A DNA stretch of 42,604 nt from Chlorobiota bacterium (lineage in GTDB: Bacteria; Bacteroidota; Ignavibacteria; OLB7), in assembly GCA_028287785.1 (NCBI GenBank), contig JAQBOZ010000020.1, positions 130,738-173,341 of the forward strand. The letters are read 5' to 3'. The translations under genes were made by a program, and so were the position numbers. The notes beneath the pieces are model-generated. The model worked only from the letters and a program-made list of their open reading frames with translations. It ran no database searches and was not told where the DNA came from. Below are positions 6,008-28,549 of this stretch, piece by piece. Position 1 is the stretch's first letter; the number at the start of each line of letters is the position of its first letter.

Positions 6008-6102
6008 GAAGACGCACCTTCAAGCGATGATGGATAATGATGAGCAGCGGGACGCGGTCGCCGCGCGATAGAAGAGAACCATCGGCATGGATTCAGGGAA
6101 CG

Positions 6103-6564: not shown

Positions 6565-6617
6565 GTCGATTTCCGATCTTCGATTGATGTTTGGTTCGGA
6601 CCCGCCATCATCACCTT

Positions 6618-7169
6618 CTACCATTCACAGCCGCCGGCCCGGAAGCGGGCCACGTAGCTCTCGTAGTTCGGCGCTCCCTGCGCCACATGGCGACGCTCGT
6701 CGTCGGAGAGATCGCGGATCACCTTTGCCGGAACACCAGCAACCAGCGTGCCTTCGGGAACGGTAAAGCCCTCGCGCACCACGGCCCCCGCCGCGATCAG
6801 CGATTCGCGCTCCACCACGGCCCGGTCCAGCACCTTCGCCCCCATCCCGATCAGCACCCGCTCGTGGACCGTGCAGCCATGAAGCACGGCGCTGTGCCCC
6901 ACCGTCACGTCATCGCCGATGATCAGCGCGTGGCGGCGATTGGTGACATGGCACATCGTCAGGTCCTGAATGTTGGTCCGCCGGCCGATCCTGATGTAAT
7001 GCACATCCCCCCGGATCACCACGTTGAACCAGACCGACGATGCCTCGCCGATCTCCACATCGCCGATGATCCTGGCCCCCGGCGCGATAAAGACATCGGG
7101 ATGGATCCGCGGCATCTTCCCCTCGAACGGGATGATCGTGATATCGCTGCGCGAACTCAATGCTTCCAT
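6618..7169 (-). CDS. Gamma-class carbonic anhydrase-like hexapeptide protein (YrdA/PaaY family)
   Basis: The 183-residue protein is built of hexapeptide repeats that form a left-handed beta-helix (VFIAPGARIIGDVEIGEASSV onward). The zinc-site histidines of the gamma carbonic anhydrase/YrdA group are present in LTMCHVTN and VGHSAVLHGC, and the family segment VWFNVVIRGDVHYIRIG is intact. The C-terminus VAGVPAKVIRDLSDDERRHV is typical. Such proteins are trimeric and may hydrate CO2, but many homologues are inactive or have other roles, so activity is not assured. Start ATG 7169 gives MEALSSRSD; no Shine-Dalgarno. It is the first gene of the minus-strand group leading into ykvA and the MFS transporter. 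Confidence 0.85.
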   Translation of the reverse strand: MEALSSRSDITIIPFEGKMPRIHPDVFIAPGARIIGDVEIGEASSVWFNVVIRGDVHYIRIGRRTNIQDLTMCHVTNRRHALIIGDDVTVGHSAVLHGCTVHERVLIGMGAKVLDRAVVERESLIAAGAVVREGFTVPEGTLVAGVPAKVIRDLSDDERRHVAQGAPNYESYVARFRAGGCEW

Positions 7170-7229
7170 GACTGCAAATCTACGATGTTGGCCTGCTCGG
7201 ACGCTCTCCGGAACGGCTCCGGGATCATC

Positions 7230-9638
7230 TTAATTCTTCAGGATCTTATCAACCGTCTCCCTGTCCTCACCCGTGACCTGCATGCGGAGATCCTGGAGCA
7301 TGGCGCGCATATCCCTGTCCAGATGCTTCCGCGCGGCGATCCCGGCCGACGAACGCACCACCGGCGAACGATCGGTAAGCCCGCGAATGATGGCGCTCCG
7401 CGCTCCCGGCGTGATCGTGTCCAGCCGGCTGAGCACCACCAGCGCCTGCGACCGCGTGCTGCCCGTATAATCCGGCGTGACGTACTCCACCACGTAATCG
7501 ACAAGGGTGTTGTACTGCGCTATCGACTCGGCGTTCAGCCATGCATAGGCCAGCTTGTCGCGCCTCCCCCGCATCCCCTTGATGGAGCGGAGGACCGCCT
7601 CCAGACCGCTGGTGTCCACGGCCGCCAGCATCCCGAGCGCGGAGCTTACCACGGCATAGCTGCTGTCGGAAAGAAGCGGCCGGAGAAGCGGGGCAAGCAC
7701 GCGCTTGTCGGAGATCATATAGGAATGTTCGACCGCGGTGTGGCGGACATCGTGCGAGGGATCGCGAAGCGCCTTCATCACGATCTCCATCCCGACGGTG
7801 GTATCGAGGATGCCGGTGGACTCCACGATCTCATCCCGGACATACCAGGATGGCTCCTTCAGAAAGGCATCGCGGATGGCGAGCGATTTCCGGCGGAGCC
7901 GCTCGCGGTCGCGCAGGGAGGAGTCGCGGGCGGTCAGCAGCTTCACCGCCTGAAAGCGGTCGATCATCCGGGACGCCTCGAGCTGTGCCACAAGCTCATC
8001 GTCGCTGCGACGGAAGCTCACGGTCTTCAGGATGGCGTCCCCCGCGTCGAAGATCGTGAACCGGGGACGCTCCTGCATCGGGAAGGAGAATGTCTCATCG
8101 GCCTGCGCCACCCAGATCGTGTCGCGCACCACGCCGCCGCGGAGGTGGAACTCGATCGGCACCGGCATCTGGAACAGCCCCGTCAGCGTATCGATCTGCT
8201 GTGTCTGACGGATTCTGAGCCTGAGCGTATCCTTCGCATAGCTCTCCTCCACCTTGTAGGCGGGATAGCCCGCCTTGTAGACCCACTCGTCGAAAAACCA
8301 GTCCAGGTTCAACCCGGTGGCGTCCTCGAAGGCGATCTTCAGATCGTTCGTCTCGGCGTTGCCGTATCCCATCCGCTGGAGATAGAGCCTGTTGGAGCGC
8401 CAGAACATATCCTCGCCGACAAGCGCGTTGAGCATGTGGAGCACGCGGGAGCCGCGCTGGTAGACGTTCGGCGTGATGCCGCGGCCGTTGGCGAGAGGAT
8501 CGCGGCCGTTCTGTTCATCGGCGTTGACGCCGGAGAGCCCGTTGTCGTACATCTCCTTCAGGAAGGCATCATCCCCCTGGCGATAGCCGTTGTAGCGGGC
8601 GGCCAGATAGGTGGCGTAGCTCTCATGCAGCCAGAGATGACCCCAGCTCCTGTTGGTGACCAGATCGCCGTACCACATGTGGGCGGCCTCGTGCGCGACA
8701 AGCCCATCGGTGTTGTAATCGATCAGCCCACGCTCATCCACCAGCGCGTAATCGTTCAGCGTGGTGGCAGTGGTGTTCTCCATGCCGCCGTACATGAAGT
8801 TGGCGATGAAGATCTGCGAGTACTTGTTCCAGGGATACGCAACGCCGGTGATGCGGGAGATATAGCGGATGACATCGGGGGTGCGACCGAATGTGGGGGC
8901 CACGCGATCCGGCATGTCGGGATAGGTCCAGTATTCCAGCGGAACGCCATCGGCACTGTCGCGCGTGACCAGGTAATCGCCGGCGGCGAGCATGATCAGA
9001 TAGCTTGCGTGGGGCTTCTCCATGGAGTAATGCCATGTCGATGTGCCGTCCGTGTTGGTGGTCGTGGAGACGAGGCGGCCGTTGGAGAGGACCTTCCATC
9101 CCCCCTGCACGGTGGCCGTCACCTCGCTGGTGGCGCGGTCGTTCGGGTAGTCGTAGATCGGCACCCAGTAATGATTATCCTCCGCCTCACCCTGCGTCCA
9201 GATCTGATGGCGGCGATGCGGGGCAAGGGAATCGGGCTGGATGAAGTAGAGACCCTTCAGCGGCTTCACGCGGTAGTCGATCGCGATGGTGAACGTATCG
9301 CCGTAGGCCCTCCGCTTCGGCAGCGATATCAGAAGAGTATCGCCGACATGCTCGTAATGCGCCGGGACGCCATCGACCATCATCCGGCTGAAGGTCATGT
9401 TCTCACCGGCATCCAGGCGCACCGCCGAGAGATCGGCGGAAAGCGAGCGGATGGTGTGATTCACCGTGCCGATCACCTCGCGCGCCGGATCGTCGAAATG
9501 GACATCGATGGCGATATGAAGGACATCGAACCGGTGCGATCTGGCCCCTTTGTAGGTCACACGATCAAAAAGCGATTGCGCCGTCGCGCTCCCGCAGATG
9601 GTCGCAAGGGCAAGAAGGATCAGCGAGGTACGAAACAT
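7230..9638 (-). CDS. Secreted M1-family zinc aminopeptidase with HEAT-like C-terminal repeats
   Basis: An 802-residue exported protein. Starting at ATG 9638 it has a signal peptide MFRTSLILLALATICGSATA followed by Q; the longer frame from 9695 adds 19 residues that would hide it. The M1 catalytic set is complete: GGMEN (a variant of GAMEN), the zinc site H316-E317-A-A-H320 and the third ligand E339, exactly 18 residues later, in WLHESYATY. It cleaves N-terminal amino acids from peptides, probably in the periplasm or outside. After about residue 560 the sequence becomes alpha-helical with HEAT-like repeats (SLRDRERLRRKSLAIRDAF, SHDVRHTAVEH, SPVVRSSAGIAARKH). No T9SS tail is seen. Peptide harvesting fits with the nearby M14 enzyme. 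Confidence 0.9.
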   Translation of the reverse strand: MFRTSLILLALATICGSATAQSLFDRVTYKGARSHRFDVLHIAIDVHFDDPAREVIGTVNHTIRSLSADLSAVRLDAGENMTFSRMMVDGVPAHYEHVGDTLLISLPKRRAYGDTFTIAIDYRVKPLKGLYFIQPDSLAPHRRHQIWTQGEAEDNHYWVPIYDYPNDRATSEVTATVQGGWKVLSNGRLVSTTTNTDGTSTWHYSMEKPHASYLIMLAAGDYLVTRDSADGVPLEYWTYPDMPDRVAPTFGRTPDVIRYISRITGVAYPWNKYSQIFIANFMYGGMENTTATTLNDYALVDERGLIDYNTDGLVAHEAAHMWYGDLVTNRSWGHLWLHESYATYLAARYNGYRQGDDAFLKEMYDNGLSGVNADEQNGRDPLANGRGITPNVYQRGSRVLHMLNALVGEDMFWRSNRLYLQRMGYGNAETNDLKIAFEDATGLNLDWFFDEWVYKAGYPAYKVEESYAKDTLRLRIRQTQQIDTLTGLFQMPVPIEFHLRGGVVRDTIWVAQADETFSFPMQERPRFTIFDAGDAILKTVSFRRSDDELVAQLEASRMIDRFQAVKLLTARDSSLRDRERLRRKSLAIRDAFLKEPSWYVRDEIVESTGILDTTVGMEIVMKALRDPSHDVRHTAVEHSYMISDKRVLAPLLRPLLSDSSYAVVSSALGMLAAVDTSGLEAVLRSIKGMRGRRDKLAYAWLNAESIAQYNTLVDYVVEYVTPDYTGSTRSQALVVLSRLDTITPGARSAIIRGLTDRSPVVRSSAGIAARKHLDRDMRAMLQDLRMQVTGEDRETVDKILKN

Positions 9639-10000: not shown

Positions 10001-11536
10001 CTATGAGCGATAGACCACCTCCCCGCCGACGATCGTCAGCAGGGCCGCCGCGCCCGGATCGTCGAACGGATTCCCGCTCAATACCACGATGTCCGCGTCG
10101 GCGCCGGGGAGTATCCGCCCGCGATGATGGTCTCCGGGGATGCCGAGCGGCGCCCACGCGGTGTAGGCGGCAACCGCGTCGGCGCGGGGAATGACCTCAC
10201 CGGGATGCCACGCTTCGGCGCCCCCGGCCGGCCGGCGGAAGTGGAACGCGCGCAGCCCTTCCAGCGGATCGGGGCTCTCGATCGGAAAGTCGGAGCCGCC
10301 GAGGATCGGGACGCCGGAGCCGAGCATGGAGCGCCAGCCGTAGGCGTAGCCGCAGCGTTCGGGGCCGAGACGGGCCTCGGCCATCGCCGCGTCGCTGGTG
10401 CAATGGGTGGGCTGCATCGCCGGGATCACGCCGAACGCGGCAAAACGGGGGACATCCGCGGGATGGACTGTCTGGGCGTGCTCCATGCGGAGAAGCGACT
10501 CCGGGAAGCCCGCGCGAAGCTCCGCATAGGCGTCGAGGACGATACGATTTGCCCCGTCGCCGATGGCGTGCGTGGCAACGGCAAACCCGCGCCGGAGCGG
10601 CTCGGATGCCAGCCTGACGATCTCCCCGGCGTCCAGAAGCTGAAGGCCGCGCGTGCCGGGCGCGTCGCTGTAGGGCTCCAGCAGAAGCGCCCCGCGCGAG
10701 CCGAGCGCGCCATCGGCGAAATACTTCACCCCGACGATATGAAGGTTCGGCCCGAGCGTCACGGGCCTCGGAACGGCGGCCCACTCCTCATTCTGCGCGG
10801 CGAGGAAGACCTGGCAGCGAAGCCGCATCCCCCCGCGATCGGCGGCGCGGGTCATCGATTCCAGCCGCTCCGGCTCCACGTTCATATCGTGCACCTCGGT
10901 GATGCCGAGACGGAGGCATTCCCCGACGCTCTCCTCGATCCATCCCCGCTGGCGTTCAACCGTGGGAGGCGGGATGGCGCGGTCCACCAGCTTCATCGCG
11001 TTGTCGATCAGGATGCCGGTCGGCTCGCCACGCTCATCCAGCTCGATGCTCCCTCCATCGATCCGTTGCGGGGTGATGCCCGCCTCCAGAAGCGCGCGAC
11101 CGTTCAGCCAGACCGCGTGGCTGTCTATCCTGTAGAGCGCCACCGGATGATCCGCGATCAGCCTGTCGAGGGTCGCCCGATCCGGCATCCTCCTCTCCGT
11201 CCACTCCTCCTGGTTCCACCCGAAGCCCACGATCCACTCCCCCGGCGCCGTTGCCCGCACCCGCTCGGCCACACGTTCGGCGCACTCCCCCGCCGAGGCC
11301 GCCCCCCGCAGCCCGACACGGCTCGCCATCAACCCGATGCCGATCAGATGGCAGTGCGTATCGACAAGGCCGGGAAGGATCATCGCCCCCGGCGGAAGCC
11401 CCATCTCCCGGCCGTCAAGAAACAGTCGGAACCGCTCCGACGGCTCAATGCCATCGATGATGCCGCCGGAACAGCGAACCGTTTTCGGGGAGAAGAAATC
11501 CGAATCCGAGGGGCGGGGAACGTTGATTGTGGACAC
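10001..11536 (-). CDS. Metal-dependent amidohydrolase, YtcJ-like (Amidohydro_3)
   Basis: The 511-residue protein has the amidohydrolase barrel signature VDTHCHLIGIG (HxH metal ligands), then HDMNVEP, TLGPNLHIVGVKYFADGALG (the KxxxDGxLGSRxA region of the YtcJ group, here DGALGSRGA), VATHAIGDGAN, MEHAQTVHP and GGSDFPIESPDPLEGLRAF near the end. These are in the order found in YtcJ-type Amidohydro_3 enzymes, which hydrolyse N-acyl or cyclic amide bonds; the substrate is unknown. It is cytosolic, without a signal peptide. The start ATG at 11536 (MSTINVPRPSD) fits. It is transcribed toward the tRNA gene; upstream lies a family A element, so its promoter would be within the 65 bases before that element or inside it. 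Confidence 0.85.
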   Translation of the reverse strand: MSTINVPRPSDSDFFSPKTVRCSGGIIDGIEPSERFRLFLDGREMGLPPGAMILPGLVDTHCHLIGIGLMASRVGLRGAASAGECAERVAERVRATAPGEWIVGFGWNQEEWTERRMPDRATLDRLIADHPVALYRIDSHAVWLNGRALLEAGITPQRIDGGSIELDERGEPTGILIDNAMKLVDRAIPPPTVERQRGWIEESVGECLRLGITEVHDMNVEPERLESMTRAADRGGMRLRCQVFLAAQNEEWAAVPRPVTLGPNLHIVGVKYFADGALGSRGALLLEPYSDAPGTRGLQLLDAGEIVRLASEPLRRGFAVATHAIGDGANRIVLDAYAELRAGFPESLLRMEHAQTVHPADVPRFAAFGVIPAMQPTHCTSDAAMAEARLGPERCGYAYGWRSMLGSGVPILGGSDFPIESPDPLEGLRAFHFRRPAGGAEAWHPGEVIPRADAVAAYTAWAPLGIPGDHHRGRILPGADADIVVLSGNPFDDPGAAALLTIVGGEVVYRS

Positions 11537-11600
11537 GGGAAATTGGGTTGCTGGTTCAGAGATATGGGAATTGTTCGATGGAGCGGACGGCGTGGAGAGA

Positions 11601-11896
11601 GCCGTGACTCATTGCGACTGCGGTCCCGTGTTCAACACCCTGCGGAGCATCCATCTTCACAGCCCCATCGGGGCGATCCGGCTGTAGCACCGCCACCTCT
11701 GTGATGATTCCAAGCTCCGTGGGAGCGTACCATGCCCCCTGAACACCGGATGGTGCGCTCCTAACGGAGCTTGGAGACAAAAGGAGCATCCCTTCTACAA
11801 CCGGTGCGCTCCGAACGGAGCTTGAAGAACGGGGAAACAATGGCTGATGACTATTCACGCTCCTGACCGGATACCGGATTCAACATGAGTCACTAC
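11601..11896 (-). mobile_element. MITE-like family A element, complete copy 2
   Basis: A 296-bp copy bounded by GCCGTGACTCATTG on the left and CAACATGAGTCACTAC on the right (imperfect terminal inverted repeats). The internal order, from CCCCATCGGGGCGATCCGG through to CTACAACCGGTGCGCTCCG and GGAGCTTGAAG, is inverted relative to copy 1. Possible 10-bp flanks CGTGGAGAGA and CGCAGGGCGA match at six positions only, so the target duplication is decayed or absent here. It occupies most of the 481-base gap between the amidohydrolase and carboxypeptidase genes; the remaining 121 bases before 12018 show nothing recognisable. Confidence 0.65.
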
Positions 11897-12017
11897 CGCA
11901 GGGCGAGGGCCGATACGCGCGATACCACATGAACAGAGACAGATCGCGAGATCGATCGGCATGGACGCGCGAGTCGGGAACGAGGCCCCTTCCGGGAGAG
12001 GGTCGAGCGATTCGTGA

Positions 12018-13280
12018 TTATTTCCGCAGCGTGAGCCACCGCGACTCGACGCCATCCCCCGTCTCGATGCGATAGATATAGACGCCGCTCGGATGCTCCG
12101 CGCCGTTCCAGCGCACCTCGTACTCGCCGCTCCCCTGATACTCGTCCACCACCTTCCCCATATCCTCGCCAAGCTGGTTGAAGACCCTGAGAAGGACGTG
12201 CGTGGGGCGGGCAACGGCATAGCGGATGGTTGTGGAACCGCTGAACGGGTTGGGATAGTTCTGATGGAGGAGAAGCCCCTGCGGGCCAAGCTCACCGGCA
12301 TCGACCACGGACGCCGGGAGCCGCAGATAATCGCCGATGCCCCGGAGGATGGCGTAGCCGGTGGAGTCGTACATCCCGGCGGTCTCGCAGTTCATATCCT
12401 CGTAGGTCAGCGCCATCACATCGGCGCCATGATTGAACCACCACCAGCTCTCGGGGAAATGCGTCGGCGCCACGGAGTCCCACGTCCTGTTGAACGGCCA
12501 CGGCTCGATCCCATCGGCGAAATAGGAATGCACGCCGGTGATGAACCGCTGTTCGCGCGCGGCGTAATCGGGGGATGTGCCGCTGGCCTCGTGGTAGACG
12601 AAGTAGCGTTTGCAGAGATAGGCGGAGTGCATGTTCAGGGCGATCTCGATCGGCGCGGGGGATGCCATCAGCTCGGCAAACCGCCGTTTCAGCGTCGCAA
12701 CCTCCGGCTCCATCGGGACCTTGTCCCACCCGCGCTCCAGATCGACGCCGTGGGCGTTTTCGCGGGGGGCGTCCAGCTCCACGCCGTCCGGGTTGTACAT
12801 CGGAACGATATAGAAGACCGTTCTATCCCGCAGCACCCGCGCGAAATCATTCTCGGATGTCAGAAAATCGATGATGGCGTCGGCCACGTGAAACGCCTGC
12901 ACCTCCCCCGGATGCGTCCTTGCGTGGATGAACACCGTGCGCCGATATTTGATCTGCGGCAGGGGGGATGTTATCGTCAACTGCCAGATTCCCCTGTTCT
13001 GCACCGACGCCCCCAGCGAGTCGATCGTCACATACGGGCTCCTCCGCCAGCGGGAGATCCTGTTGAGGAGACTATCGTACCCGAACCCCCAGTGGGGGCC
13101 CAGGACGCCGAGCAGCCCGCGTATATGTTTCCCCCCCGAATCCCATCCCTCCTCGTCGAGATAGAAGACGTGGCGCGTCGTATCGACGGCGGTCTCCCCT
13201 TTCTGCGCGCGGGCCGCGGCCGGGATCAGCAGCAGGAGAAGGAGAATATATCGCAATGGATTTCCCGTACACGTCAGCAT
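12018..13280 (-). CDS. Secreted M14 zinc carboxypeptidase with T9SS sorting domain
   Basis: A 420-residue exported metallopeptidase. ATG 13280 gives a signal peptide (MLTCTGNPLRYILLLLLLIP then AAARAQ); the longer frame from 13451 overlaps the upstream FAD gene and lacks it. The M14 zinc pair lies in HARTHPGE (H123, E126), with MYNPDGVELD and the third ligand region ALNMHSAY further on, and ALTYEDMNCE near the usual catalytic glutamate. The last 80 residues are a type A T9SS sorting domain starting QNYPNPFSGSTTIRYAV and ending with HPSGVYIYRIETGDG. The enzyme should be moved through the outer membrane by the type IX system and anchored or released outside, trimming peptides from the C-terminus. 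Confidence 0.9.
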   Translation of the reverse strand: MLTCTGNPLRYILLLLLLIPAAARAQKGETAVDTTRHVFYLDEEGWDSGGKHIRGLLGVLGPHWGFGYDSLLNRISRWRRSPYVTIDSLGASVQNRGIWQLTITSPLPQIKYRRTVFIHARTHPGEVQAFHVADAIIDFLTSENDFARVLRDRTVFYIVPMYNPDGVELDAPRENAHGVDLERGWDKVPMEPEVATLKRRFAELMASPAPIEIALNMHSAYLCKRYFVYHEASGTSPDYAAREQRFITGVHSYFADGIEPWPFNRTWDSVAPTHFPESWWWFNHGADVMALTYEDMNCETAGMYDSTGYAILRGIGDYLRLPASVVDAGELGPQGLLLHQNYPNPFSGSTTIRYAVARPTHVLLRVFNQLGEDMGKVVDEYQGSGEYEVRWNGAEHPSGVYIYRIETGDGVESRWLTLRK

Positions 13281-13344: not shown

Positions 13345-14781
13345 TTAGCGCAATGCCCTGCGCAGCGCAGCCCGAGCCGCGTGATAGCCGCACATGCCGT
13401 GCACGCCGCCGCCGGGCGGGGTGGAGGAGGAGCAGATGTAGATGCCTTCATCCGGCGTGGTGTAGGGGACGGCCCGCATCACCGGGCGGGTGAAAAGCTG
13501 ACGGAGATCCTGCGCGCCGCCGTTGATGTCGCCGCCGATATAGTTCGGGTTGTAGCGCTCGAATGCCTCGGCGGTGATCGTCCTCCGCGCGATGATCCTT
13601 TCGCGAAACCCCGGCGCGAACCGCTCCACCTGCCGCTCTATCCGCTCGGTCATATCCACGGTCGATCCGTTCGGAACGTGGCAGTATCCCCAGAGCGTCT
13701 GCTTCCCCTCCGGCGCGCGCGTGGGATCGAACAGGCTCTGCTGCGCCAGCAGCACAAACGGTCGCTCCACATGCTCGCCGTTCCACATCCCCCGCTCCGA
13801 TGCCGCGATCTCCCCCAGCGTCCCGCCGATATGCACGGTCCCCGCATCCCGGCATCCCTCCGCGACGAACGGCACAGGGCCGTCGAGCGCCCAGTCCACC
13901 TTGCAGACGCCGGGGCCGTACCGGTAACGCTCCAGCCGTTTCCGGTATCCGCCGGAAAGCCTGCTCCCCGCTATCGCCAGCATCTGCCGCGGCGTTACGT
14001 CGAAGAACACCGCCTTTGCCGGCGGAAGCTCATCGATCGATTCAATCCTCCTCCCCACCACGATCTCCCCATCCAGCGAGCGGAGATACTCCGCCAGCGC
14101 GCCGGCGATGCGGGCGGAGCCGCCTTTCGGAACCGGCCAGCCGACAGCGTGCCCGAGCATCCCCAGGACCAGCCCGAATGCCGCCGTGGAGAGCATCTCC
14201 AGCGGAAGAATGGAATGGGCCGACAGGCCGGCGAAGTAGCCGCGGGCCGCCTCGGTGCGGAACCGGGAAGTGGCGAGCGAGCTTGCCGAGCGGAGCGCCG
14301 GAAGGCCGAACCGGGCAAGGGCGAGCGGATGGCGCGGCACGCCGAACGGGCCGAGCAGATCGGGGAGGATCTTCTCCCATCGCTCCACCAGCGGTGTCAT
14401 CAGACGACGGTAGGCATCGGCATCGGCGCCGAGAGTGGCGGCGGTGGCATCGATCGAGCGGGTCAGGAGGACGGCGGTTCCATCGTCGAGAGGATGGGCT
14501 ATCGAGACCGGCGGGAAGATCCACTCGACGCCATGATCGGCAAGGGGAATGGTTCTGAAGAATGGCGAGCCGACGCCGAGCGGATGAATCGCCGAGCAGA
14601 TATCGTGAAGATATCCCGGCAGCGTCAGCTCCTCGGTCCGCGTCCCGCCGCCGATCGTCTCCTTCGCCTCGAAGACGATCACCGAACGCCCCGCGCGGGC
14701 GATGGTGATGGCGGCGGCAAGCCCGTTCGGGCCGGAGCCGACGACAACGGCATCGTATGAGGTTCGGCGGGGAGTGGTCAT
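13345..14781 (-). CDS. FAD-dependent oxidoreductase, phytoene desaturase/PYROXD2-like
   Basis: The 478-residue protein begins with the dinucleotide-binding fold AVVVGSGPNGLAAAITIARA and the E of VIVFEAKETIGGG, the start pattern of the CrtI/PYROXD2 group. The C-terminus YICSSSTPPGGGVHGMCGYH is the group's second FAD-binding segment. The longer NWSGD motif of true carotenoid desaturases is not visible, so a role in carotenoid synthesis should not be assumed; many such proteins are of unknown function. No carotenoid genes lie nearby. Its ATG (14779-14781) overlaps the yraN stop codon by one base, which suggests translational coupling. It ends 64 bases before the carboxypeptidase start. Confidence 0.8.
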   Translation of the reverse strand: MTTPRRTSYDAVVVGSGPNGLAAAITIARAGRSVIVFEAKETIGGGTRTEELTLPGYLHDICSAIHPLGVGSPFFRTIPLADHGVEWIFPPVSIAHPLDDGTAVLLTRSIDATAATLGADADAYRRLMTPLVERWEKILPDLLGPFGVPRHPLALARFGLPALRSASSLATSRFRTEAARGYFAGLSAHSILPLEMLSTAAFGLVLGMLGHAVGWPVPKGGSARIAGALAEYLRSLDGEIVVGRRIESIDELPPAKAVFFDVTPRQMLAIAGSRLSGGYRKRLERYRYGPGVCKVDWALDGPVPFVAEGCRDAGTVHIGGTLGEIAASERGMWNGEHVERPFVLLAQQSLFDPTRAPEGKQTLWGYCHVPNGSTVDMTERIERQVERFAPGFRERIIARRTITAEAFERYNPNYIGGDINGGAQDLRQLFTRPVMRAVPYTTPDEGIYICSSSTPPGGGVHGMCGYHAARAALRRALR

Positions 14782-15155
14782 CAGAACGCGTTGATATGGT
14801 GGCGGATCTCCGGCTTCCCTCCGATGCCGGTAACATAATCGACGGCGACGACATCGAAGCGGGCCTCGCTCTCCGCGACCCCGTTGATGTAGATGAACCC
14901 CTCCGCCACCTTCCTGATCCGGCGCCGCCTGGCGGGCGTGAGCGCCTCCTCCGGCAGACCGAACCCGCGCGAGCGCCGCCCCTTCACCTCGATGAAGATG
15001 TAGGCGGCGCCATCGCGCATGATCAGATCGATCTCCCCGGCCCTGCCGAAATGGAAGTTCCTTCCGACCAGCGTGTAGCCGAGCCCGAGCAGGTATTGCA
15101 GCGCGATCTCCTCATGGATGGCGCCGTCGGCACGGCGGTTGGTTTGTGGGTCCAT
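14781..15155 (-). CDS. yraN: UPF0102 protein YraN (endonuclease-fold)
   Basis: A 124-residue protein with the UPF0102 hallmarks: an N-terminal segment EEIALQYLLGLGYTLVGRNF, then the nuclease-like core GEIDLIMRDGAAYIFIEVKG (G-E-[IV]-D and E-V-K) and the following basic helix LTPARRRRIRKVAEGFIYIN. It has the fold of small archaeal Holliday-junction resolvases, but its function is not settled. Length is normal. It lies between tyrS and the FAD enzyme on the minus strand, overlapping the latter by one base. Directly before its ATG is a 17-bp tandem duplication. Confidence 0.9.
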   Translation of the reverse strand: MDPQTNRRADGAIHEEIALQYLLGLGYTLVGRNFHFGRAGEIDLIMRDGAAYIFIEVKGRRSRGFGLPEEALTPARRRRIRKVAEGFIYINGVAESEARFDVVAVDYVTGIGGKPEIRHHINAF

Positions 15156-15188
15156 TATTCCGGGAGGACGTTTATTCCGGGAGGACGT
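15155..15188. repeat. Tandem duplication of 17 bp at the yraN start
   Basis: The unit TTATTCCGGGAGGACGT occurs twice in direct succession (15155-15171 and 15172-15188). On the minus strand this places two copies of ACGTCCTCCCGGAATAA directly before the yraN ATG. Next to it is a short hairpin (GGACGTTT-G-AAACGTCC, 15183-15199). It could alter translation initiation or simply be a slippage product. Confidence 0.85.
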
Positions 15189-15208
15189 TTGAAACGTCCC
15201 CCGACGCG

Positions 15209-16429
15209 TTACGCGTTCGTCAGCCGGAGGAATCGTCTCTTGCCGACCTTGAGCACGGCATCGGCCGCGGGCTGGTAGACGAAGTTGACATCGTCCACCT
15301 TCACGCCATCGATCGAAACGCCTCCCCCCTGGATCAGCCGCTTCGCCTCCCCCTTCGATGCCGCCAGCCCTCCCTGCACCAGCAGATCGAGAATCACCAT
15401 CGGCCCATCGACATGATGGGAATCGATCTGCTCCGGCACGTCCTTCTGGATAAAGACGCGGTCGAACTCCTCCTCCGCCTTCTGCGCGGTTCCCTCGCTG
15501 GTGTAGCGGGCAACGATCTCGCGGGCCAGACGGCGCTTCGCGTCGCGGGGATGGAGCTGCCCATCGGCCAGTTGCGCGGCGACGGCGTCGAGCTCGTCGG
15601 GGGGATAGAAGAGGGCATACTTGTAGTAGCCGGGCATCAGCTCATCGGGGATCGAGAGGATTTTTCCGTACATGTCGTTGGGGAAATCACCGAGCCCGAC
15701 GTAGTTGTTGAGCGACTTCGACATCTTATCGTGCCCGTCGGTGCCGATCAGCAGCGGCGTCGTCACGATCGACTGCGGCTCCTGGCCGTAGGAGCGCTGG
15801 ATTTCGCGCCCCACCAGCAGGTTGAAGGTCTGGTCGGTCCCGCCCAGCTCCACATCCGACTTGATGGCGACCGAGTCCATCGCCTGGGCGAGCGGGTAGA
15901 GGAACTCGTGAACGGAGATCGGCGTCTCGGACTCGAAGCGCCTGTGGAAATCATCCCGTTCCAGCATCTGCGACACCGTATACTGCGAGGCCAGCTTGAT
16001 CACATCGTTGAAGGTCATCTTGCCGAGCCATTCGGAGTTATAGACCATCCTGATGCGCTTGGAGGAGAGCACCCTGGTGGCCTGTTCGAAGTAGCTCCGG
16101 CCGTTCTGCTGCGTCTCCTCCAGCGTCAGCGCCGGTCGGGTCTTGGAGCGGCCGGTCGGGTCGCCGATCATCGCCGTGAAATCCCCGACGATGAGAATGG
16201 CCTGATGCCCCAGGTCCTGGAAGTCGCGCATTTTCTGGAGGACGACGGCGTGTCCCAGATGGAGGTCGGGGGCCGACGGATCGGCGCCCAGCTTGACATT
16301 GAGCGGGGTGTCGCTTGCCATCGCCCTGACGATCTTCGCCGCCAGATCCTCTTCGTGTATGATGCTCACCGTCCCGCGACGGATCAGATCCATCTGCTCG
16401 TTGACGGAGGGAAATTGAATTCTGGTCAT
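15209..16429 (-). CDS. tyrS: Tyrosyl-tRNA synthetase
   Basis: A 406-residue class I synthetase that charges tRNA-Tyr. The HIGH-type motif is PDLHLGHAVV, the KMSKS loop is DKMSKSLNNY, and a C-terminal S4 RNA-binding domain follows (LAASKGEAKRLIQGGGVSID). LVGREIQRSYGQEPQ and GGTDQTFNLL belong to the amino-acid pocket. A canonical KMSKS puts it with the TyrRS branch that differs from the KFGKT-bearing E. coli enzyme. Start ATG 16429 (MTRIQFPSVNEQ). It is preceded by smpB (96-base gap) and followed by yraN (53-base gap), which probably forms one housekeeping transcript. Confidence 0.95.
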   Translation of the reverse strand: MTRIQFPSVNEQMDLIRRGTVSIIHEEDLAAKIVRAMASDTPLNVKLGADPSAPDLHLGHAVVLQKMRDFQDLGHQAILIVGDFTAMIGDPTGRSKTRPALTLEETQQNGRSYFEQATRVLSSKRIRMVYNSEWLGKMTFNDVIKLASQYTVSQMLERDDFHRRFESETPISVHEFLYPLAQAMDSVAIKSDVELGGTDQTFNLLVGREIQRSYGQEPQSIVTTPLLIGTDGHDKMSKSLNNYVGLGDFPNDMYGKILSIPDELMPGYYKYALFYPPDELDAVAAQLADGQLHPRDAKRRLAREIVARYTSEGTAQKAEEEFDRVFIQKDVPEQIDSHHVDGPMVILDLLVQGGLAASKGEAKRLIQGGGVSIDGVKVDDVNFVYQPAADAVLKVGKRRFLRLTNA

Positions 16430-22343: not shown

Positions 22344-22880
22344 ATGTTATGGAAGGAACTTGAATTCATCACCACGGCGATACGCCGCGCAACGCTCTCC
22401 CGATTTACCGGAATTTCCGCCGAGCAGATCAGCGATGCCGTGCATGACGCGCGCTCGATCTTCTTTGAGAAATTCTATACGAAGGGGGATATCGAGCTTC
22501 CGCTTGATCCCCCGGCCGCATATTCATGGATTGCGCTGACCGCCACGCGCGCGCTTCTCCGCGAACAGGGACGCCGCCGCCGGCTGATCCATATCCCGTT
22601 CGATTACGATCCGGATGCCGATTATCCCCGCGAAGCCAGCCGCGAGGCGCTCGATGCCGTTCGACGGTTCGGCCAGTCGCCGGAGGCGTCGTGGGATGCG
22701 GTCCTTACGCTGGAGGCCCTTATGGCACGGCTTTCCCCGATCATGGCGGAGGTGGTACGGGAACACGATATCCGGGGAGAAACGCTGCAGGGGGTCGCCG
22801 GCAGGATGGGCTGCACGCTCAGCGCCGCAAAGCAGCGCCACCGTCGCGCTCTGTTGAAAATGAGGGATGTTGAGCGATGA
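22344..22880 (+). CDS. Sigma-70 family (ECF-like) RNA polymerase sigma factor
   Basis: A 178-residue protein with an ECF-like layout. The N-terminal half (residues about 25-85) fits region 2, including YSWIALTATRALLREQGRRR; a linker of about 35 residues follows; and the C-terminal 55 residues fit region 4: LEALMARLSPIMAEVVREHD, then the helix-turn-helix GETLQGVAGRMGCTLSAAKQRHRRALLKM. It would direct RNA polymerase to a small regulon. AGGGAGGAT stands six bases before the ATG, a strong Shine-Dalgarno that most neighbours lack. No anti-sigma factor gene lies beside it: uvrB diverges upstream and non-coding repeats follow. The gap in homology around residues 85-120 makes the sub-group uncertain. 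Confidence 0.75.
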   Translation: MLWKELEFITTAIRRATLSRFTGISAEQISDAVHDARSIFFEKFYTKGDIELPLDPPAAYSWIALTATRALLREQGRRRRLIHIPFDYDPDADYPREASREALDAVRRFGQSPEASWDAVLTLEALMARLSPIMAEVVREHDIRGETLQGVAGRMGCTLSAAKQRHRRALLKMRDVER

Positions 22881-23280: not shown

Positions 23281-23751
23281 TTACCCTGCCCCCTCATTCC
23301 CATCACCCATATCTCCGGCGTCCAGATGAAATGTGAACATCACTGCATCCTCCTGTTCCGCGTTGGCGCCGATCGAGTTGTAGAGCCCCATTGCCGGCGC
23401 ATTCGAGCGGTGGGTAAGCACCCATGCCTCACCGCATCCGCTCCTCCGGGCGATGTCGAGCATCGCCAGCATCATCCGGCGACCGATGCCACGCCGGTGA
23501 TGGCCTGGAGCCACCCCCACCTCATCGATCCATAACTCCGGGCGCCCCCTGTCGGGATGGATATGAAGGGCGGCGGAGACCATCCCCACCACCACCCCGT
23601 CATCGATCGCCACCACCATCCGGTTTCGGGGATCGGCCAGGAAATCCCTTGCCGCGAATTCATCGATATCGTTGTCGAACACCTCACCGGGGGGAGCGGT
23701 CCCAAGAATTGCCGCATCTCCGGCACGCAGCTCGCGGATTTCCATCGGCAT
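23281..23751 (-). CDS. GNAT acetyltransferase, distant AAC(3)-I-like
   Basis: A 156-residue GNAT protein starting MPMEIRELRAGDAAIL (ATG 23751; an ATG six bases further in is also possible). The acetyl-CoA motif is DEVGVAPGHHRRGIGRRMML, and the C-terminal LYNSIGANAEQEDAVMFTFH is the usual family ending. The layout (VFDN...FLADP, ELWIDEVGVA, AWVLTHRSNAPAMGLYNSIG, MFTF) recalls the AAC(3)-I aminoglycoside acetyltransferase group, but the resemblance is to the general fold and does not show drug modification. It lies 73 bases after the Hsp70 stop codon on the same strand and may be the last gene of the chaperone operon. Confidence 0.8.
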   Translation of the reverse strand: MPMEIRELRAGDAAILGTAPPGEVFDNDIDEFAARDFLADPRNRMVVAIDDGVVVGMVSAALHIHPDRGRPELWIDEVGVAPGHHRRGIGRRMMLAMLDIARRSGCGEAWVLTHRSNAPAMGLYNSIGANAEQEDAVMFTFHLDAGDMGDGNEGAG

Positions 23752-23824
23752 GATCGTTCCACCTCCCATCGCGTTTATCATCGTTGATCGAGCGGGCACT
23801 CCCGCGCCGTCCGGCCCGTGATGC

Positions 23825-26341
23825 TCACCGCATCGAACGCCGGATGCCGGACTCCATCACCCGTTTCTGCTCCACATCCTCCTCATCCTCCGGCAGGAGC
23901 TTCCAAAGACCGCGCACCGCCTCCCGCAGCCCCGATTCGTTGTTCTGTTCGAGCGCCTTCTGACCCGATTCAAGATGGCGCTGGGCGGCGGCGGGATCGA
24001 GGAAGCTCCGGTGCCGGAGATAGGCAAGCTGGTTTTTCCAGAACCAGCTCTGCATCACCACGATCCTCCAGCGGAGCTGGCGAAAATCCTCCGCCAGCCG
24101 CTCCAGGCCGCGCGCGTCCTCGCGACGGATCTGCTCGTCGGCATCCTTGCAGAGCCGCTCCCACTCGACCTTGTCGACGGGGTTGCCGTAGAGGCCGATC
24201 ACCACCTCCGCCTCCCCCCTGATCTCCATCAGGCTGGTCATCGCAACCTGAAAGCGGTCGGTCGGCGAGATCTTCCGCTCAAGCTCGCTGATTTTCCCGG
24301 AGAGCGATTTGAACTTCTGGTAGATGCGGCGGGCATCATCGGGGTACTTCTCCCCCTGCCGGTATTCGTCGTACTCCACCCAGAGATCATCGGCCTCGAC
24401 GCGGAGCGACTTCAGCTTCGCGAGCAGGTCGTAGCTGCTGTTCTGGCGGGCGGCACGGTCGAGAAGCTCGATCTTCTCACGGCGCTGCTCGATATCGTAA
24501 TCGAGGTTCGCCACCTTCTCCAGCAGGTTCGGATCGTTCTCCTGCGCGACGTAGACGTTCTCCTGAAAGTGCGAGCCAAGGCTCGGGACAAACGCATGAA
24601 CCTCCATCTGCCGGGATGTGTTGATCGTCACCGACAGCTCGATATCGGACCCCTCGTGGAGCGGCCTGCGGATATTGTTGGCGGCGATCTTCAACGCTCC
24701 CACGAAGGTGTTGGTGGCCGGATCGGAAAACTCCCCCTCCCACAGCTTGATGGCGATATGCTCGCCGGAGTCAGGCTTCAGCGTCTTGTTGGCCTTGTAG
24801 GTGATGATCCTGCTGGCCGGCAACGGCGTGGAGCGGGGGAAGATCACATCGAACTCCGAGATTCCATCCTGCCGCACGATCTCCGCGCCGATCGAATGGG
24901 GAAGCGGCGGCTCGGAGAGGAGAAGCCCATGACGGATGGAGAAGGAATCGGGGCGCGCCACCAGTTCCTCTCCCGGCGCGCCACGGAGGGAGATTTTGAA
25001 ACGCTCGGTCTTCCCTTCAAGCAGGCTCACCACCGCATCGAACGCGCCGTTGCGGATCGGAAGCCAGCCGCTGTTCCACCGCCCGCTTTCGGTTTCGATG
25101 AAGATCTCGGTCGCCGATGCACCGGAGCCGTCGGCATCGATCTTCCCCATCACCAGCGATGTCGTCTCCGGCCATACCGGCTCGTAGGCCAGCGTCAGCG
25201 CCACCGTGCCGGCAACCGGCGCGGAGGCCGGCATCACCGTGCGGGGACATGTGGATGCGTAGATGGCCGCCCCCTGCGCCACCACCGTCATCGGGTCGAT
25301 CGAGAAATCGAGCGGGGTGTTGAACGCGGAGGCCAGCGCCTCGCGCACAATCGGCATCTGCGTGGGGCCGCCGACCAGAACCACGGTGGAGAGATCACCG
25401 GCGCTGATTCTTCCGCCGTCGATCGCCTCGCGGCAGAGGTCGAGCGTCTGCTCGATCAGCGGCTCGGCGATCTGGTTCAGCTCCGAACGGGTCAGCGTGA
25501 ACTCCATCTCCACCTCATGACCATCCGCATCGGTCCCGGCATCGAAGATCGAGACGATGGCGCTCGTCGCAAAGCTGAGATCGATCTTCACCTCCTCCGC
25601 CTTCTTCTGGAGCGTCTGAAGCAGGCGACGCTGATCGGCCCCGGCCCCCTCGCCGGTCGGGAGCGAGAAGGCTTCACGAAGCCTCGGCAGCAGCAGCTTC
25701 CGGACGATCAGCCGGTCGAAATCCTTTCCGCCGAGCATGTTGTTGCCGCGATGATCCAGCACCACAAGCTGCCCGTCGCGCGTGGAGATGACGGCGACAT
25801 CGAACGTGCCGCCGCCCAGATCGTAGACAAGCAGGCGCTTGTCGCGCGCGTCGGATTTCATGCCGTAGGCGATGGCCGCGGCCACCGGCTCCTGAATGAG
25901 CGAAACCTCGGCAAGACCGGCCAGCCGCGCCGACCGCCCGGTGGCCTCACACTGAAGCTGACCGAACGCCGCCGGCACGGTGATTACCGCGGAATCGACG
26001 ATCTCACCCGTCTGCCGCCGCGCATCCTCCAGAAGCGATTTCAGCACCTCGGCCGAAAGCTCCTCGGCGGAACAATCGCGACCGGCGGCATTAAAGCTCT
26101 TCCTGTCGCTCTGCCCCATCCACCGCTTGAACTCGCACGCCACATTGTCGGGATCGGTGAAGAGGGAATTGTAGGCCCGCCGTCCCACGATGACCCTCCC
26201 CGATTTATCCACCTGCACCACCGACGGCGTCACGTCCATCTGGTCGCGGTTCTTGAAGATCCTCATCTCCGCGCCGTCGTATCGGGCGATAGCCGAGTTG
26301 GTGGTTCCGAGATCAATTCCGAAATCGATTGTGCCGCTCAT
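23825..26341 (-). CDS. Divergent Hsp70-family protein with long non-canonical C-terminal half
   Basis: An 838-residue Hsp70 relative. The ATPase domain is well kept: phosphate-1 loop FGIDLGTTNSA (residues 7-17), phosphate-2 YDLGGGTFDVAVIS (from Y173), adenosine motif VVLVGGPTQMPIVREAL (about 318-334) and GAAIYAS near 365. The usual hydrophobic interdomain linker (DVLLLDV) is replaced. Residues about 375-585 retain only hints of a beta-type substrate domain (ASRIITYKANKTLKPDSGEH, IELSVTINTSRQMEVHAFVP), and about 250 further residues are strongly helical (NLDYDIEQRREKIELLDRAA, FRQLRWRIVVMQSWFWKNQL). No signal peptide or EEVD-type end. The start ATG 26341 gives MSGTIDFG. It begins 12 bases after the GrpE-like gene. 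It is not the housekeeping DnaK; its client and role are unknown. Confidence 0.88.
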   Translation of the reverse strand: MSGTIDFGIDLGTTNSAIARYDGAEMRIFKNRDQMDVTPSVVQVDKSGRVIVGRRAYNSLFTDPDNVACEFKRWMGQSDRKSFNAAGRDCSAEELSAEVLKSLLEDARRQTGEIVDSAVITVPAAFGQLQCEATGRSARLAGLAEVSLIQEPVAAAIAYGMKSDARDKRLLVYDLGGGTFDVAVISTRDGQLVVLDHRGNNMLGGKDFDRLIVRKLLLPRLREAFSLPTGEGAGADQRRLLQTLQKKAEEVKIDLSFATSAIVSIFDAGTDADGHEVEMEFTLTRSELNQIAEPLIEQTLDLCREAIDGGRISAGDLSTVVLVGGPTQMPIVREALASAFNTPLDFSIDPMTVVAQGAAIYASTCPRTVMPASAPVAGTVALTLAYEPVWPETTSLVMGKIDADGSGASATEIFIETESGRWNSGWLPIRNGAFDAVVSLLEGKTERFKISLRGAPGEELVARPDSFSIRHGLLLSEPPLPHSIGAEIVRQDGISEFDVIFPRSTPLPASRIITYKANKTLKPDSGEHIAIKLWEGEFSDPATNTFVGALKIAANNIRRPLHEGSDIELSVTINTSRQMEVHAFVPSLGSHFQENVYVAQENDPNLLEKVANLDYDIEQRREKIELLDRAARQNSSYDLLAKLKSLRVEADDLWVEYDEYRQGEKYPDDARRIYQKFKSLSGKISELERKISPTDRFQVAMTSLMEIRGEAEVVIGLYGNPVDKVEWERLCKDADEQIRREDARGLERLAEDFRQLRWRIVVMQSWFWKNQLAYLRHRSFLDPAAAQRHLESGQKALEQNNESGLREAVRGLWKLLPEDEEDVEQKRVMESGIRRSMR

Positions 26342-26353
26342 GTCCTCTATCAA

Positions 26354-26722
26354 TCAAATGGGTTGTTGCGTTACCGGCCGCCGCTCCAGCACCACCTCCC
26401 CCCACGAGAGCAGTGCTCCGCGGAGAAGGATAATCGGGGCCACGGTTTCCTTGATCATCAGTTGCGTATCGCCGCTCTCATCGCCGTCGATATCGACCAC
26501 ATCCACGGCCATGCCGGCATGGTACTCACCGCCCGCGGCGTCGACGTAGGAAATGCCGATCTCCTCAAGCGCCGCCCGGATCTTCCGCAGTGAATACCGC
26601 AGGCCGACGCTGCCGGGGAGATCTTTTCCACGTTCCACCTCGCGCGCCGCGCGCCATGTCTCCAGCGCCAGCGTCGCAAGCGTATCGCGCCCGACTTCCA
26701 GTCCATCCGCCTGTTCGCTCAT
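26354..26722 (-). CDS. GrpE-like small protein (putative nucleotide-exchange partner)
   Basis: A 122-residue protein (ATG 26722, MSEQADGLEVGRD; an ATG at 26755 would add 11 residues). The central LRYSLRKIRAALEEIGISYV followed by DAAGGEYHAGMAVDVVDIDG and GALLSWGEVVLERRP follows the layout of the GrpE C-terminal beta domain: a helix ending in LexxGv, a DxxGexfxxxxHeAv-like segment, then a strand ending near VLRPAxVxV. The long N-terminal dimerising helix of GrpE is absent, with only about 35 residues of helix. The match is of pattern, not of strict identity, so this is an inference strengthened by position between a J-like gene and an Hsp70 gene. If right, it would speed ADP release from the neighbouring Hsp70. 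Confidence 0.5.
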   Translation of the reverse strand: MSEQADGLEVGRDTLATLALETWRAAREVERGKDLPGSVGLRYSLRKIRAALEEIGISYVDAAGGEYHAGMAVDVVDIDGDESGDTQLMIKETVAPIILLRGALLSWGEVVLERRPVTQQPI

Positions 26723-26761
26723 TGGTTCATCATGATTCGGGTTGACCGGGTCCACCCGCCC

Positions 26762-28549
26762 CTACCGCGACGAGGGCGCGCGGAGGATGGCGGTGGCGTG
26801 TTTGTGCAGGTTATAGGAATCAGCAAGCTCCTTATCGATCTCCATGAACTTGAACACGCTGGCCTCATCCGCTATCGACTTCCTGAGCGCCGCGATATTC
26901 CTGTTGGCCGCGGCCATCGTATCGCTATACTCCCTGTAGCGGCTCGAGAACTCGTTCCACTTGTCCCGATAATTTGTCAGCAGAGTCGCCAGCCACTTAT
27001 CCTTCACGGCTGTCGAGCCGGATGTATCGGGGATATGAGCGATGTTGAATCGCCGCCCCCTGCCGCTGGTATCCGAGTGTTGGTCGACACTCCCCCGGTA
27101 GGCATCGAGAGTATCGACCATCGCATAGAGGGAATCGATCCGCTGGCTCAGAAAATAGTCCTGCCGCACCAGCTCGTGCACATAGGCACGATCCTCCTCC
27201 GTTCTGGCGGCGCGAAAGTAGGACGGCTCCATCAGGCCGGGGTCATTCGCATGAATTCTCTGATAGCGTTTCGACGGACCCGGATCGATTGACGGGTAAT
27301 CGCTCGAAGGATACGTTGATCGATAACCATCCGGATAGTTCGTGGGGAAATTCGATGATGATCCCCCCGTATGCCCCAGAACGTAAATGATGATGAGCGC
27401 CCCCTTTACAAGCCAGTAAATCCTCCAGCCACCCGACGATCCCCGCGGGGAACGCGCCGGCCTGCCGGAGCTGTATGGCTTGACCTTGGTCGTGGTCTCG
27501 GTGATCCGGCGGGTGAACGTCCCGCTGGCGACGGCATTCGACTCGCGGGCCAGGTTCTGCGCGAACGTCGTGTTCCGTTGCGCCTGCGCCTCCGAAGCCA
27601 GTTCCATCAGCAGCTCGGCGGCGGTTTTGCAGACGTTGCGCGATGGCCCGAAGTCCGCCCCGGTCCCCTCCGACAGCTTGCTGACCAGTGGGTAGACCTC
27701 CCGCCGGTAGCGTTCATAGGCGGAATCCAGCGAGCTCTCCCGGTATTCGTGCATCCGGCTCCACTGCTTCAGATCGGCCAGAATCGCATCGCACATGGTG
27801 GCAACCTCGGACTCCACGCTGACGAAGGAATCGGTCTCCAGCACTGTGATGCTCCGCTGCGGCGCCCCCGCCTCCCGGAGCATCTCGAGATGATGGCGCG
27901 CGTTGGAAAAGCGCCGCCCCTTCACCAGCTCCGCCACCATGACGGCGGACGGGCCAAGCAGCAGTTCCCAGGCGTTATGCCGCAATTCCACGAAGTCATC
28001 CCCGGTGGCAATCGGCTCGAACCCGGCGCGCGACTCCTGGGCGGCCAGATGGTCCCAGAACTCCGTCATCCTGATAAGCGAGCCCCAGAGCCCCATTGCA
28101 GTCTTCCAGGCGCCGACGATCGTTTCCACCGTCTGGCCGGCGCCCGGCTGAAGAGCGGGAATATCTCTCACCATCGCCAGCATATGACGGATACGAGCGG
28201 CATTGGCGCGCGAGTCCACCGAAGGATCGGCCTCCCACCGTTTTGCCGCCTCCTCATATCGTCCCTCCCGCATCAGCCCGATTGCATCGCGATCGGCGGG
28301 GGTTTCATTGGAGAACCAGAGGAGCCGTTCGCGCAGCCGCTGCTTTACATTGTTCAGGGCGTTGTTGGCATCCCGCAGATCGCCCTCGGCAAACCTCCGG
28401 GCGTTCAACCGAAGGAGAGGATCGTCCGGGTTCGCCAGTTCCTCCACCCTCCGGCCCAGGCGGGCGCGGTGGAACGTGGACCACACATCCCCACGGGTCG
28501 CCCCGTTGAAAAGCCCCAGAACGCGATATCCGTTATCGAAATAAATCAT
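26762..28549 (-). CDS. Membrane protein with degenerate J-like N-terminus
   Basis: A 595-residue protein (ATG 28549, MIYFDNGYRVLGLFNGATRG; an upstream start at 28603 adds 18 unlikely residues). Residues 1-80 resemble a J domain: YRVLGLFNGAT matches YxxLGVxxxAs, a helix follows (DVWSTFHRARLGRRVEEL), then N40-P41-D42 where HPD would be expected, and a second long helix ending RERLLWFS. The histidine essential for stimulating Hsp70 is thus missing, or the domain is of the HPD-less kind. Residues 85-370 are helical and unassigned. One membrane span lies at about 374-393 (YWLVKGALIIIYVLGH), followed by a proline/serine-rich segment and about 200 helical residues. As the first gene of the cassette it may tether the chaperone to the membrane. 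Confidence 0.7.
   Translation of the reverse strand: MIYFDNGYRVLGLFNGATRGDVWSTFHRARLGRRVEELANPDDPLLRLNARRFAEGDLRDANNALNNVKQRLRERLLWFSNETPADRDAIGLMREGRYEEAAKRWEADPSVDSRANAARIRHMLAMVRDIPALQPGAGQTVETIVGAWKTAMGLWGSLIRMTEFWDHLAAQESRAGFEPIATGDDFVELRHNAWELLLGPSAVMVAELVKGRRFSNARHHLEMLREAGAPQRSITVLETDSFVSVESEVATMCDAILADLKQWSRMHEYRESSLDSAYERYRREVYPLVSKLSEGTGADFGPSRNVCKTAAELLMELASEAQAQRNTTFAQNLARESNAVASGTFTRRITETTTKVKPYSSGRPARSPRGSSGGWRIYWLVKGALIIIYVLGHTGGSSSNFPTNYPDGYRSTYPSSDYPSIDPGPSKRYQRIHANDPGLMEPSYFRAARTEEDRAYVHELVRQDYFLSQRIDSLYAMVDTLDAYRGSVDQHSDTSGRGRRFNIAHIPDTSGSTAVKDKWLATLLTNYRDKWNEFSSRYREYSDTMAAANRNIAALRKSIADEASVFKFMEIDKELADSYNLHKHATAILRAPSSR

Follow-up and report, generated by a model that had tools for sequence, protein, structure and literature searches.

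Organization of the Cassette

The stretch of DNA analyzed in this work (hereafter, the window) spans 42,604 nucleotides of the genome of a Chlorobiota bacterium (contig JAQBOZ010000020.1, assembly GCA_028287785.1), and it carries on its minus strand, from position 28549 down to position 23825, a cassette of genes coding, in this order, for a J-like protein, a small GrpE-like protein (mini-GrpE), and a divergent Hsp70. An earlier note, based on the letters of the window alone, had described three consecutive minus-strand genes separated by gaps of 39 bases (J-like/mini-GrpE) and 12 bases (mini-GrpE/Hsp70); re-checking the coordinates of the open reading frames (ORFs) confirmed their position, strand, and spacing. 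The features of the three genes, all on the minus strand, are as follows.

26762..28549, minus: J-like/TPR-like protein, 595 amino acids, one putative membrane span (ATG at 28549, stop at 26762; ORF and homologues)
28298..28549, minus: N-terminal J-like domain without HPD, residues 1-84 (hhalign; weak structural matches)
27365..27421, minus: putative membrane span of the J-like protein, residues 377-395 (hydropathy)
26354..26722, minus: mini-GrpE, 122 amino acids (ATG at 26722, stop at 26354; AlphaFold2 and Foldseek)
23825..26341, minus: divergent Hsp70, 838 amino acids (ATG at 26341, stop at 23825; PF00012 and tree)
25253..26323, minus: Hsp70 nucleotide-binding domain, ATP-handling residues intact (Pfam range and alignment)
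25901..25903, minus: codon at the position of DnaK R167, coding for Ser (alignment)
24908..25240, minus: additional domain (about 110 residues) that separates the nucleotide-binding domain from the substrate-binding domain, in place of the conserved linker (alignment)
24551..24907, minus: substrate-binding beta domain, approximate limits (profile matches to DnaK substrate-binding domain structures)
23828..24550, minus: long C-terminal region, probably helical (alignment)

The same genome harbors a canonical DnaK (contig 19), an HscA-like Hsp70 with its J protein HscB (contig 16, beside IscU-like and cysteine-desulfurase-like genes), and GrpE and DnaJ (contig 21). The cassette is additional to this housekeeping chaperone system, from which the earlier note had already set it apart.

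A Separate Hsp70 Family

The divergence that had been attributed to the Hsp70 is borne out by both profiles and phylogeny. The protein matches PF00012 (E 1.7e-79, residues 11-367 of the 842-codon ORF), but its scores with the NCBIfam models for DnaK (TIGR02350, 276.9 bits) and HscA (TIGR01991, 245.7 bits) fall below the respective cut-offs of 822.55 and 708.55 bits. In a maximum-likelihood tree, all the 37 cassette Hsp70s included split from 13 DnaK and HscA proteins with a branch support of 100/100, and the split stays when E. coli DnaK and HscC are added, with HscC falling together with DnaK and HscA (in a quick tree, where the HscC branch is long). Judged from these sequence comparisons, the window Hsp70 is a member of a family of its own, apart from DnaK, HscA, and HscC. 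In searches of the 19 genomes reached via cassette loci, the top match to the window Hsp70 was a cassette-type protein (E 1e-89 to 1e-103 over about 600-800 residues); the other, DnaK-length Hsp70s matched only over the nucleotide-binding domain, with E values of about 1e-37 to 1e-56. The nearest relatives found are encoded by two predicted phage contigs (L201 and L202; 43-44% over about 840 residues).

The insert of about 110 residues is seen in the alignment of cassette Hsp70s and not in the host DnaK or HscA; the structures of the DnaK substrate-binding domain match the Hsp70 profile only beyond this insert (best E 7.6e-9), and no clear DnaK match was retrieved C-terminal to the substrate domain when the profile was compared with structures.

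The GrpE-Like and J-Like Partners

The two partners matched no Pfam, NCBIfam, or PADLOC family. As for the mini-GrpE, the AlphaFold2 model built with 39 homologues (predicted local distance difference test, pLDDT, 90) shows two helices and, after them, a beta domain, and the top 12 Foldseek matches in the PDB were all GrpE proteins, including those of E. coli, Geobacillus, Thermus, Mycobacterium, and human mitochondria; on the basis of this model, we assign a GrpE fold to the protein with high confidence, as the earlier note had proposed. The sequence signal is fainter: the family profile found a sole match among PDB sequences (GrpE 4ani, E 0.18), PF01025 is touched weakly by 20 of the 44 family members (best member E 0.002), and the window mini-GrpE has no match at the curated PF01025 cut-off. 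No matches were obtained when genome contigs were searched with its sequence alone, and single-sequence searches of PDB sequences were empty. Nucleotide exchange on the cassette Hsp70 would be the role of such a protein.

The J-like character of the third protein is supported by profile comparisons. Its N-terminal domain aligns with its counterparts in the other J-like proteins of the cassettes (hhalign 96%, E about 1e-8) and with J-domains at 56-66% (56-77% considering both cassette sets together), with reversed and unrelated controls not exceeding 9%. Homologues were found in a sister genome (E 2e-43) and in the phage contigs L201 (E 7e-13) and L202 (E 7e-9), where they occupy the same operon position and share 22-23% identity over about 350-380 residues. 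The structural data are less clear. The AlphaFold2 model of residues 1-130 reached a pLDDT of 73, the MAFFT alignment used having probably misplaced helix II, and it gave no Foldseek match; a second structural comparison of this moderate model listed the J-domain structures 2dn9, 4it5 (HscB), and 2ctw at weak Z scores of 3.4-4.2, over ranges including residues 1-84, below a top row formed by a TPR protein over residues 81-130 (Z 6.5), a pattern that would fit a J-like plus TPR protein. Since Foldseek was empty and the second comparison was led by the TPR match, we do not claim a confirmed J fold.

Loss of the J-Protein Trigger Contact

The contacts by which a J-domain acts on DnaK include those of the HPD motif (D35 with R167 and H33 with L391 of the linker), while E217 and L392 also touch the J-domain (PMC13012618); Y145 is likewise counted among the J-contact residues. 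We measured the conservation of these and other residues in 58 members of the family and in 14 DnaK, HscA, and HscC proteins. The ATP-handling positions D8, K70, E171, D194, T199, and D201 are kept in 58/58 cassette Hsp70s; on the other hand, none of the 58 has Arg at R167, Tyr at Y145, or Glu at E217, whereas the comparison set retains R167 and Y145 in 14/14 and E217 in 13/14 proteins. The conserved hydrophobic linker motif was found in 0/66 cassette Hsp70s and the HPD motif in 0/75 cassette J-like N-domains. As read from these alignments, the contact through which J proteins switch on Hsp70 is lost in both partners throughout the family. The coexistence of an intact catalytic site with the loss of both halves of the interface suggests that the pair evolved off the canonical trigger rather than decayed. 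The family-wide absence of HPD, of the Hsp70 contact residues, and of the linker makes it unlikely that the J-like protein is a classical co-chaperone. Of the self-contained set drawn in the earlier note, the dedicated exchange factor and the membrane tether find support, the role of a classical co-chaperone being the part to revise.

The Putative Membrane Tether

The J-like protein had been described with one membrane span, and we place a putative span on the proteins of the window, of the sister genome, of L202, and probably of L201; at the same place, hydropathy in the homologues (2.26 at residue 377 in the sister genome, 2.08 in L202) is higher than in the window copy. Elsewhere, the hydrophobic segment lies on other subunits. 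In one Bacteroidota type, it is found at the N-terminus of the GrpE-like protein, with a further span closing some of the J-like proteins of this type; in many Pseudomonadota it is borne by a companion protein starting with GFAGLSSLVSDV, often provided with a peptidoglycan-binding domain. That the anchored subunit changes and the anchor is kept suggests that membrane location matters for the cassette.

The companion gene belongs to the cassettes that also bear an AAA ATPase (L067, positions 13894-15459, with equivalents in L016, L017, L072, L089, and others). The layout of its product comprises the conserved N-terminal GFAGLSSLVSDV, a proline-rich linker, the hydrophobic stretch, a domain with the signature YNSRC..FRY and, often, the peptidoglycan-binding domain; the motif GFAGLSSLVSDV resembles a docking tag.

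Distribution, Mobile Carriage, and Neighboring Genes

Relatives of the window Hsp70 were found in at least 274 genome places, and we retrieved the best 80 of them; these 80 loci were picked by motifs of the AAA-bearing type and are mutually related rather than independent draws, many of them being metagenome-assembled. A GrpE-like gene directly precedes the Hsp70 gene in 75/75 loci with a readable flank. Downstream, the first 5 kb include a J-like gene in 64/66 loci, a loose count, since the J-like profile also matches the membrane companion through a shared domain and some loci might contain the latter, and an AAA ATPase gene in 60/66. These loci span Pseudomonadota, Chlorobiota, Poribacteria, Acidobacteriota, Chloroflexota, Thermodesulfobacteriota, Fibrobacterota, and others, and the recurrence of the gene set across phyla is therefore more than chance; the rare co-occurrence that the earlier note had named as speaking against a system was not observed. 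The distribution is patchy, Hsp70 relatives being present in 14 of 395 genomes of the phylum of the window and in 6 of 294 genomes of its class, and a close-match search of E. coli genomes with a Marinobacter cassette found none.

The composition of the set varies. In the fetched loci from the phylum of the window, distant sets also have a small GrpE-type gene preceding the Hsp70 gene, which codes either for a mini-protein (profile hhalign 87% to the window mini-GrpE family) or for a longer protein with an N-terminal signal/anchor, a coiled coil, and a terminal GrpE-like module (93.5%), with controls at most at 0.7%. Sets without an adjacent AAA gene exist (e.g., L123 and L124-L130), and some distant sets also comprise a TerB-like protein together with a kinase-AAA fusion. 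Examples of the latter are two Bacteroidota loci (L131, positions 6932-8779, and L024, positions 10526-12340), where a protein kinase-AAA ATPase fusion stands beside the cassette Hsp70 and is followed by the TerB-like gene. Several cassette AAA ATPases (L012, 10856-12298; L017, 10491-11927; L018, 10503-11855; L019, 10500-11948) end in a conserved IGF(I/V), similar to a docking tail. A conserved run of four genes with no clear Pfam family follows the cassette in L067 (17507-20384), with counterparts in L016, L017, L072, and L089, and in L016 and L017 it is followed in turn by an RDD-family gene.

Relatives are also carried by mobile elements. They occur on plasmids of several genera, in a Tn7-like element of Aeromonas and Shewanella plasmids and of an Aeromonas simiae contig, and on nine predicted viral contigs (metagenome predictions), among which L199 carries terminase and integrase genes, L200 endolysin and integrase genes, L201 an amidase gene, L202 a lytic tail protein gene, and L196 a tail protein gene. 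Among deposited phage records, no place covered 80% of the query, those listed matching the nucleotide-binding domain only.

Defence genes stand beside individual loci, namely Zorya, restriction-modification and Fic, BREX, and a Thoeris TIR gene. The latter, of the ThsB type (L012, 6766-7704; E 1.1e-27), lies together with a small putative membrane gene directly upstream of a Chlorobium cassette. In one batch of flanks, the matches to defence models amounted to 402 families vs. 64 in random regions of the same genomes, and in the other batch to 80 families, barely above random, with stronger and more specific matches than random in both; we regard this enrichment as suggestive only. PADLOC 2.0.0 assigned the cassette proteins to no defence system, apart from a marginal LmuB match (E 0.013) over a helical region.

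In the window, the cassette is flanked by genes for a GNAT acetyltransferase, a cystathionine beta-synthase, and a sigma-70 region 4 protein (Pfam/NCBIfam scan). The acetyltransferase gene (23281-23799) lies on the same strand, 25 bases past the Hsp70 stop, and might be co-transcribed; the small sigma-70 region 4 protein is encoded on the plus strand (22344-22880), with a score under the cut-off for extracytoplasmic function sigma factors. Base composition gave no signal of horizontal acquisition, the G+C content of the cassette being near that of the window.

Proposed Function and Alternative Explanations

J proteins are regarded as obligatory partners of Hsp70, on which they act through HPD. 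On the whole, we suggest that the cassette encodes an Hsp70 machine which is private and tethered to the membrane, which differs in type from DnaK, HscA, and HscC, and whose J-like protein lacks the HPD trigger; we would give this reading a probability of roughly 0.6. According to it, the J-like protein would hold the Hsp70 at the inner membrane and would recruit or select clients via its TPR-like part. Because HPD, R167, and the linker are all gone, the ATPase would not be fired by the J-like protein through the HPD-R167-linker route, and hydrolysis might instead be set off by the binding of a client or by the inserted domain, the companion AAA ATPase being a further candidate trigger in most relatives; the mini-GrpE would then reset the cycle. 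With lower confidence, the patchiness of the cassette and its carriage by phages, plasmids, and a Tn7-like element suggest a conditional benefit, most probably envelope surveillance during infection or stress. A client in export or membrane biogenesis, along the lines of the membrane or export pathway given as an example in the earlier note, finds no counterpart among the neighbors; mobile and phage carriage and some defence genes recur instead.

Some observations weigh against this reading. The window copy lies among housekeeping genes, outside any mobile element, and the AAA ATPase gene usual in relatives is not beside it; the candidates that the host genome might offer in trans are AAA-domain matches only, the best one in a 704-residue frame that is probably FtsH. 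The span of the window copy is modest (19-residue hydropathy of 1.43), and structure prediction did not confirm a J fold for the third protein. Lastly, the sister genome carries at the same place, beside the cystathionine beta-synthase gene, an orphan J-like gene with neither Hsp70 nor mini-GrpE (L011, positions 5943-7700).

Among the alternatives, the one that survives best is an anti-phage or inter-element conflict system, in which the trio (plus the AAA or kinase-AAA protein in relatives) would act as a threshold sensor held at the membrane, through which an effector is released or activated upon infection. The carriage on predicted phages, plasmids, and the Tn7-like element, the Zorya, BREX, restriction-modification, Fic, and Thoeris TIR neighbors, the defence matches in the flanks, and the precedent of HSP70/GrpE/DnaJ sets in conflict systems (PMC7159879) all point in this direction, but there is no constant effector gene, PADLOC knows none of the three proteins, and the flank enrichment is uneven and pooled rather than calculated per locus, besides the housekeeping surroundings of the window copy. 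We consider this explanation a real contender, with somewhat less than even chances. 

A second explanation is that of a machine for envelope quality control or stress, remodelling the cytosolic parts of membrane proteins and spreading as a mobile fitness gene, like HscC-DjlC, or as a phage aid to host takeover. It would account for a tether that is kept though the subunit changes and for the companions with peptidoglycan-binding domains, and HscC with its tail-anchored DjlC has been proposed to act on membrane proteins (PMC8215388). However, no envelope-biogenesis neighbor was found, the distribution is patchy, and mobile carriage would be unusual for quality control, so that we view it as rather doubtful; patchiness and mobility together lead us to favor infection surveillance, itself tentative, over membrane quality control.

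A third possibility concerns the J-like protein, which might be a helical/TPR adaptor not related to J proteins, the set then being an Hsp70-GrpE pair plus an unrelated tether. The lack of HPD, the moderate AlphaFold2 model, and the empty Foldseek search would fit this idea; we deem it unlikely in view of the J-domain profile matches, well above their controls, and of the J-domains among the second structural rows over residues 1-84. Finally, that the window copy is a decaying, non-working remnant of a larger cassette, as its missing AAA gene and the sister genome with the J-like gene only might indicate, is very improbable given its three intact and closely spaced frames, normal G+C content, and conserved catalytic residues, and given that AAA-less sets occur elsewhere (e.g., in L123 and L124-L130).

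If the cassette is indeed a tethered machine with no HPD trigger, then the Hsp70 cycle can run on another trigger with the ATPase residues and a GrpE-type exchange factor kept, and the family offers a natural way of telling which parts of the cycle cannot be dispensed with; if, in addition, mobile carriage reflects defence, chaperone-based surveillance would be added to phage biology. A wider idea, towards which we are more sceptical than inclined, is that of yet another major kind of bacterial Hsp70 machine, mobile, tethered, and equipped with its own GrpE-fold exchange factor, in which both partners abandoned the HPD-R167-linker contact for another switch (the inserted domain or the AAA ATPase), serving phages, plasmids, and hosts as an envelope sensor of infection.

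Comparison with Known Systems

With DnaK-DnaJ-GrpE, the cassette shares the three roles, a GrpE-type gene beside the Hsp70 gene, and the catalytic residues of the ATPase; it differs in lacking R167, Y145, E217, the linker, and HPD, and in having a mini-GrpE, an inserted domain, a longer C-terminal region, and a membrane tether. An HPD-less J-like protein is also known from the mitochondrial import motor Pam16/Pam18-mtHsp70-Mge1, where Pam16 is paired with the HPD-bearing Pam18 and Hsp70 works at the membrane. The similarity is one of analogy, the window cassette having no second J protein.

In E. coli, HscC, like the cassette Hsp70, is a specialised Hsp70 encoded near membrane-anchored J-type partners (DjlB/DjlC); it is described as having no interaction with GrpE, its partner DjlC being tail-anchored (PMC8215388). 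We did not file the cassette Hsp70 with HscC, which keeps R167 and groups with DnaK and HscA on the other side of the fully supported branch. Myxococcus xanthus likewise has a second Hsp70 whose gene is immediately preceded by a GrpE homologue of its own, namely SglK (MXAN_6671) with MXAN_6672 (PMC11019930); differently from the cassette protein, SglK is DnaK-type (PRK00290) and complements E. coli dnaK (PMC8265645).

As for conflict systems, HSP70/GrpE/DnaJ sets were reported in putative GAP1-N2 GTPase systems of Actinobacteria and Firmicutes, together with FNIII-repeat proteins (Kaur et al. 2020, PMC7159879). They share with the cassette the HSP70 and GrpE genes and a DnaJ- or TPR-bearing partner; the linked GTPase and the FNIII-repeat protein are both missing beside the window cassette, which was not filed with them, a distinction drawn from gene context. 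An Hsp70-like component in a defence context is also CnuD of the CoCoNuT systems, which is linked to McrBC-type GTPases and whose ATPase motifs are reported to be degenerate (PMC11090510). This filing was not adopted either, the motifs of the cassette Hsp70 being intact and no McrB-type GTPase occurring among the scanned genes flanking the window cassette. More generally, the finding that a bacterial NLR-like defence protein needs the host DnaJ shows that chaperones can feed phage sensing (PMC12169576). We found no description of the cassette Hsp70 family in the open-access papers searched. What is already known, then, is the presence of HSP70/GrpE/DnaJ sets in conflict systems; the cassette works like DnaK-DnaJ-GrpE or HscC-DjlC and, by the tests made, is a member of neither.

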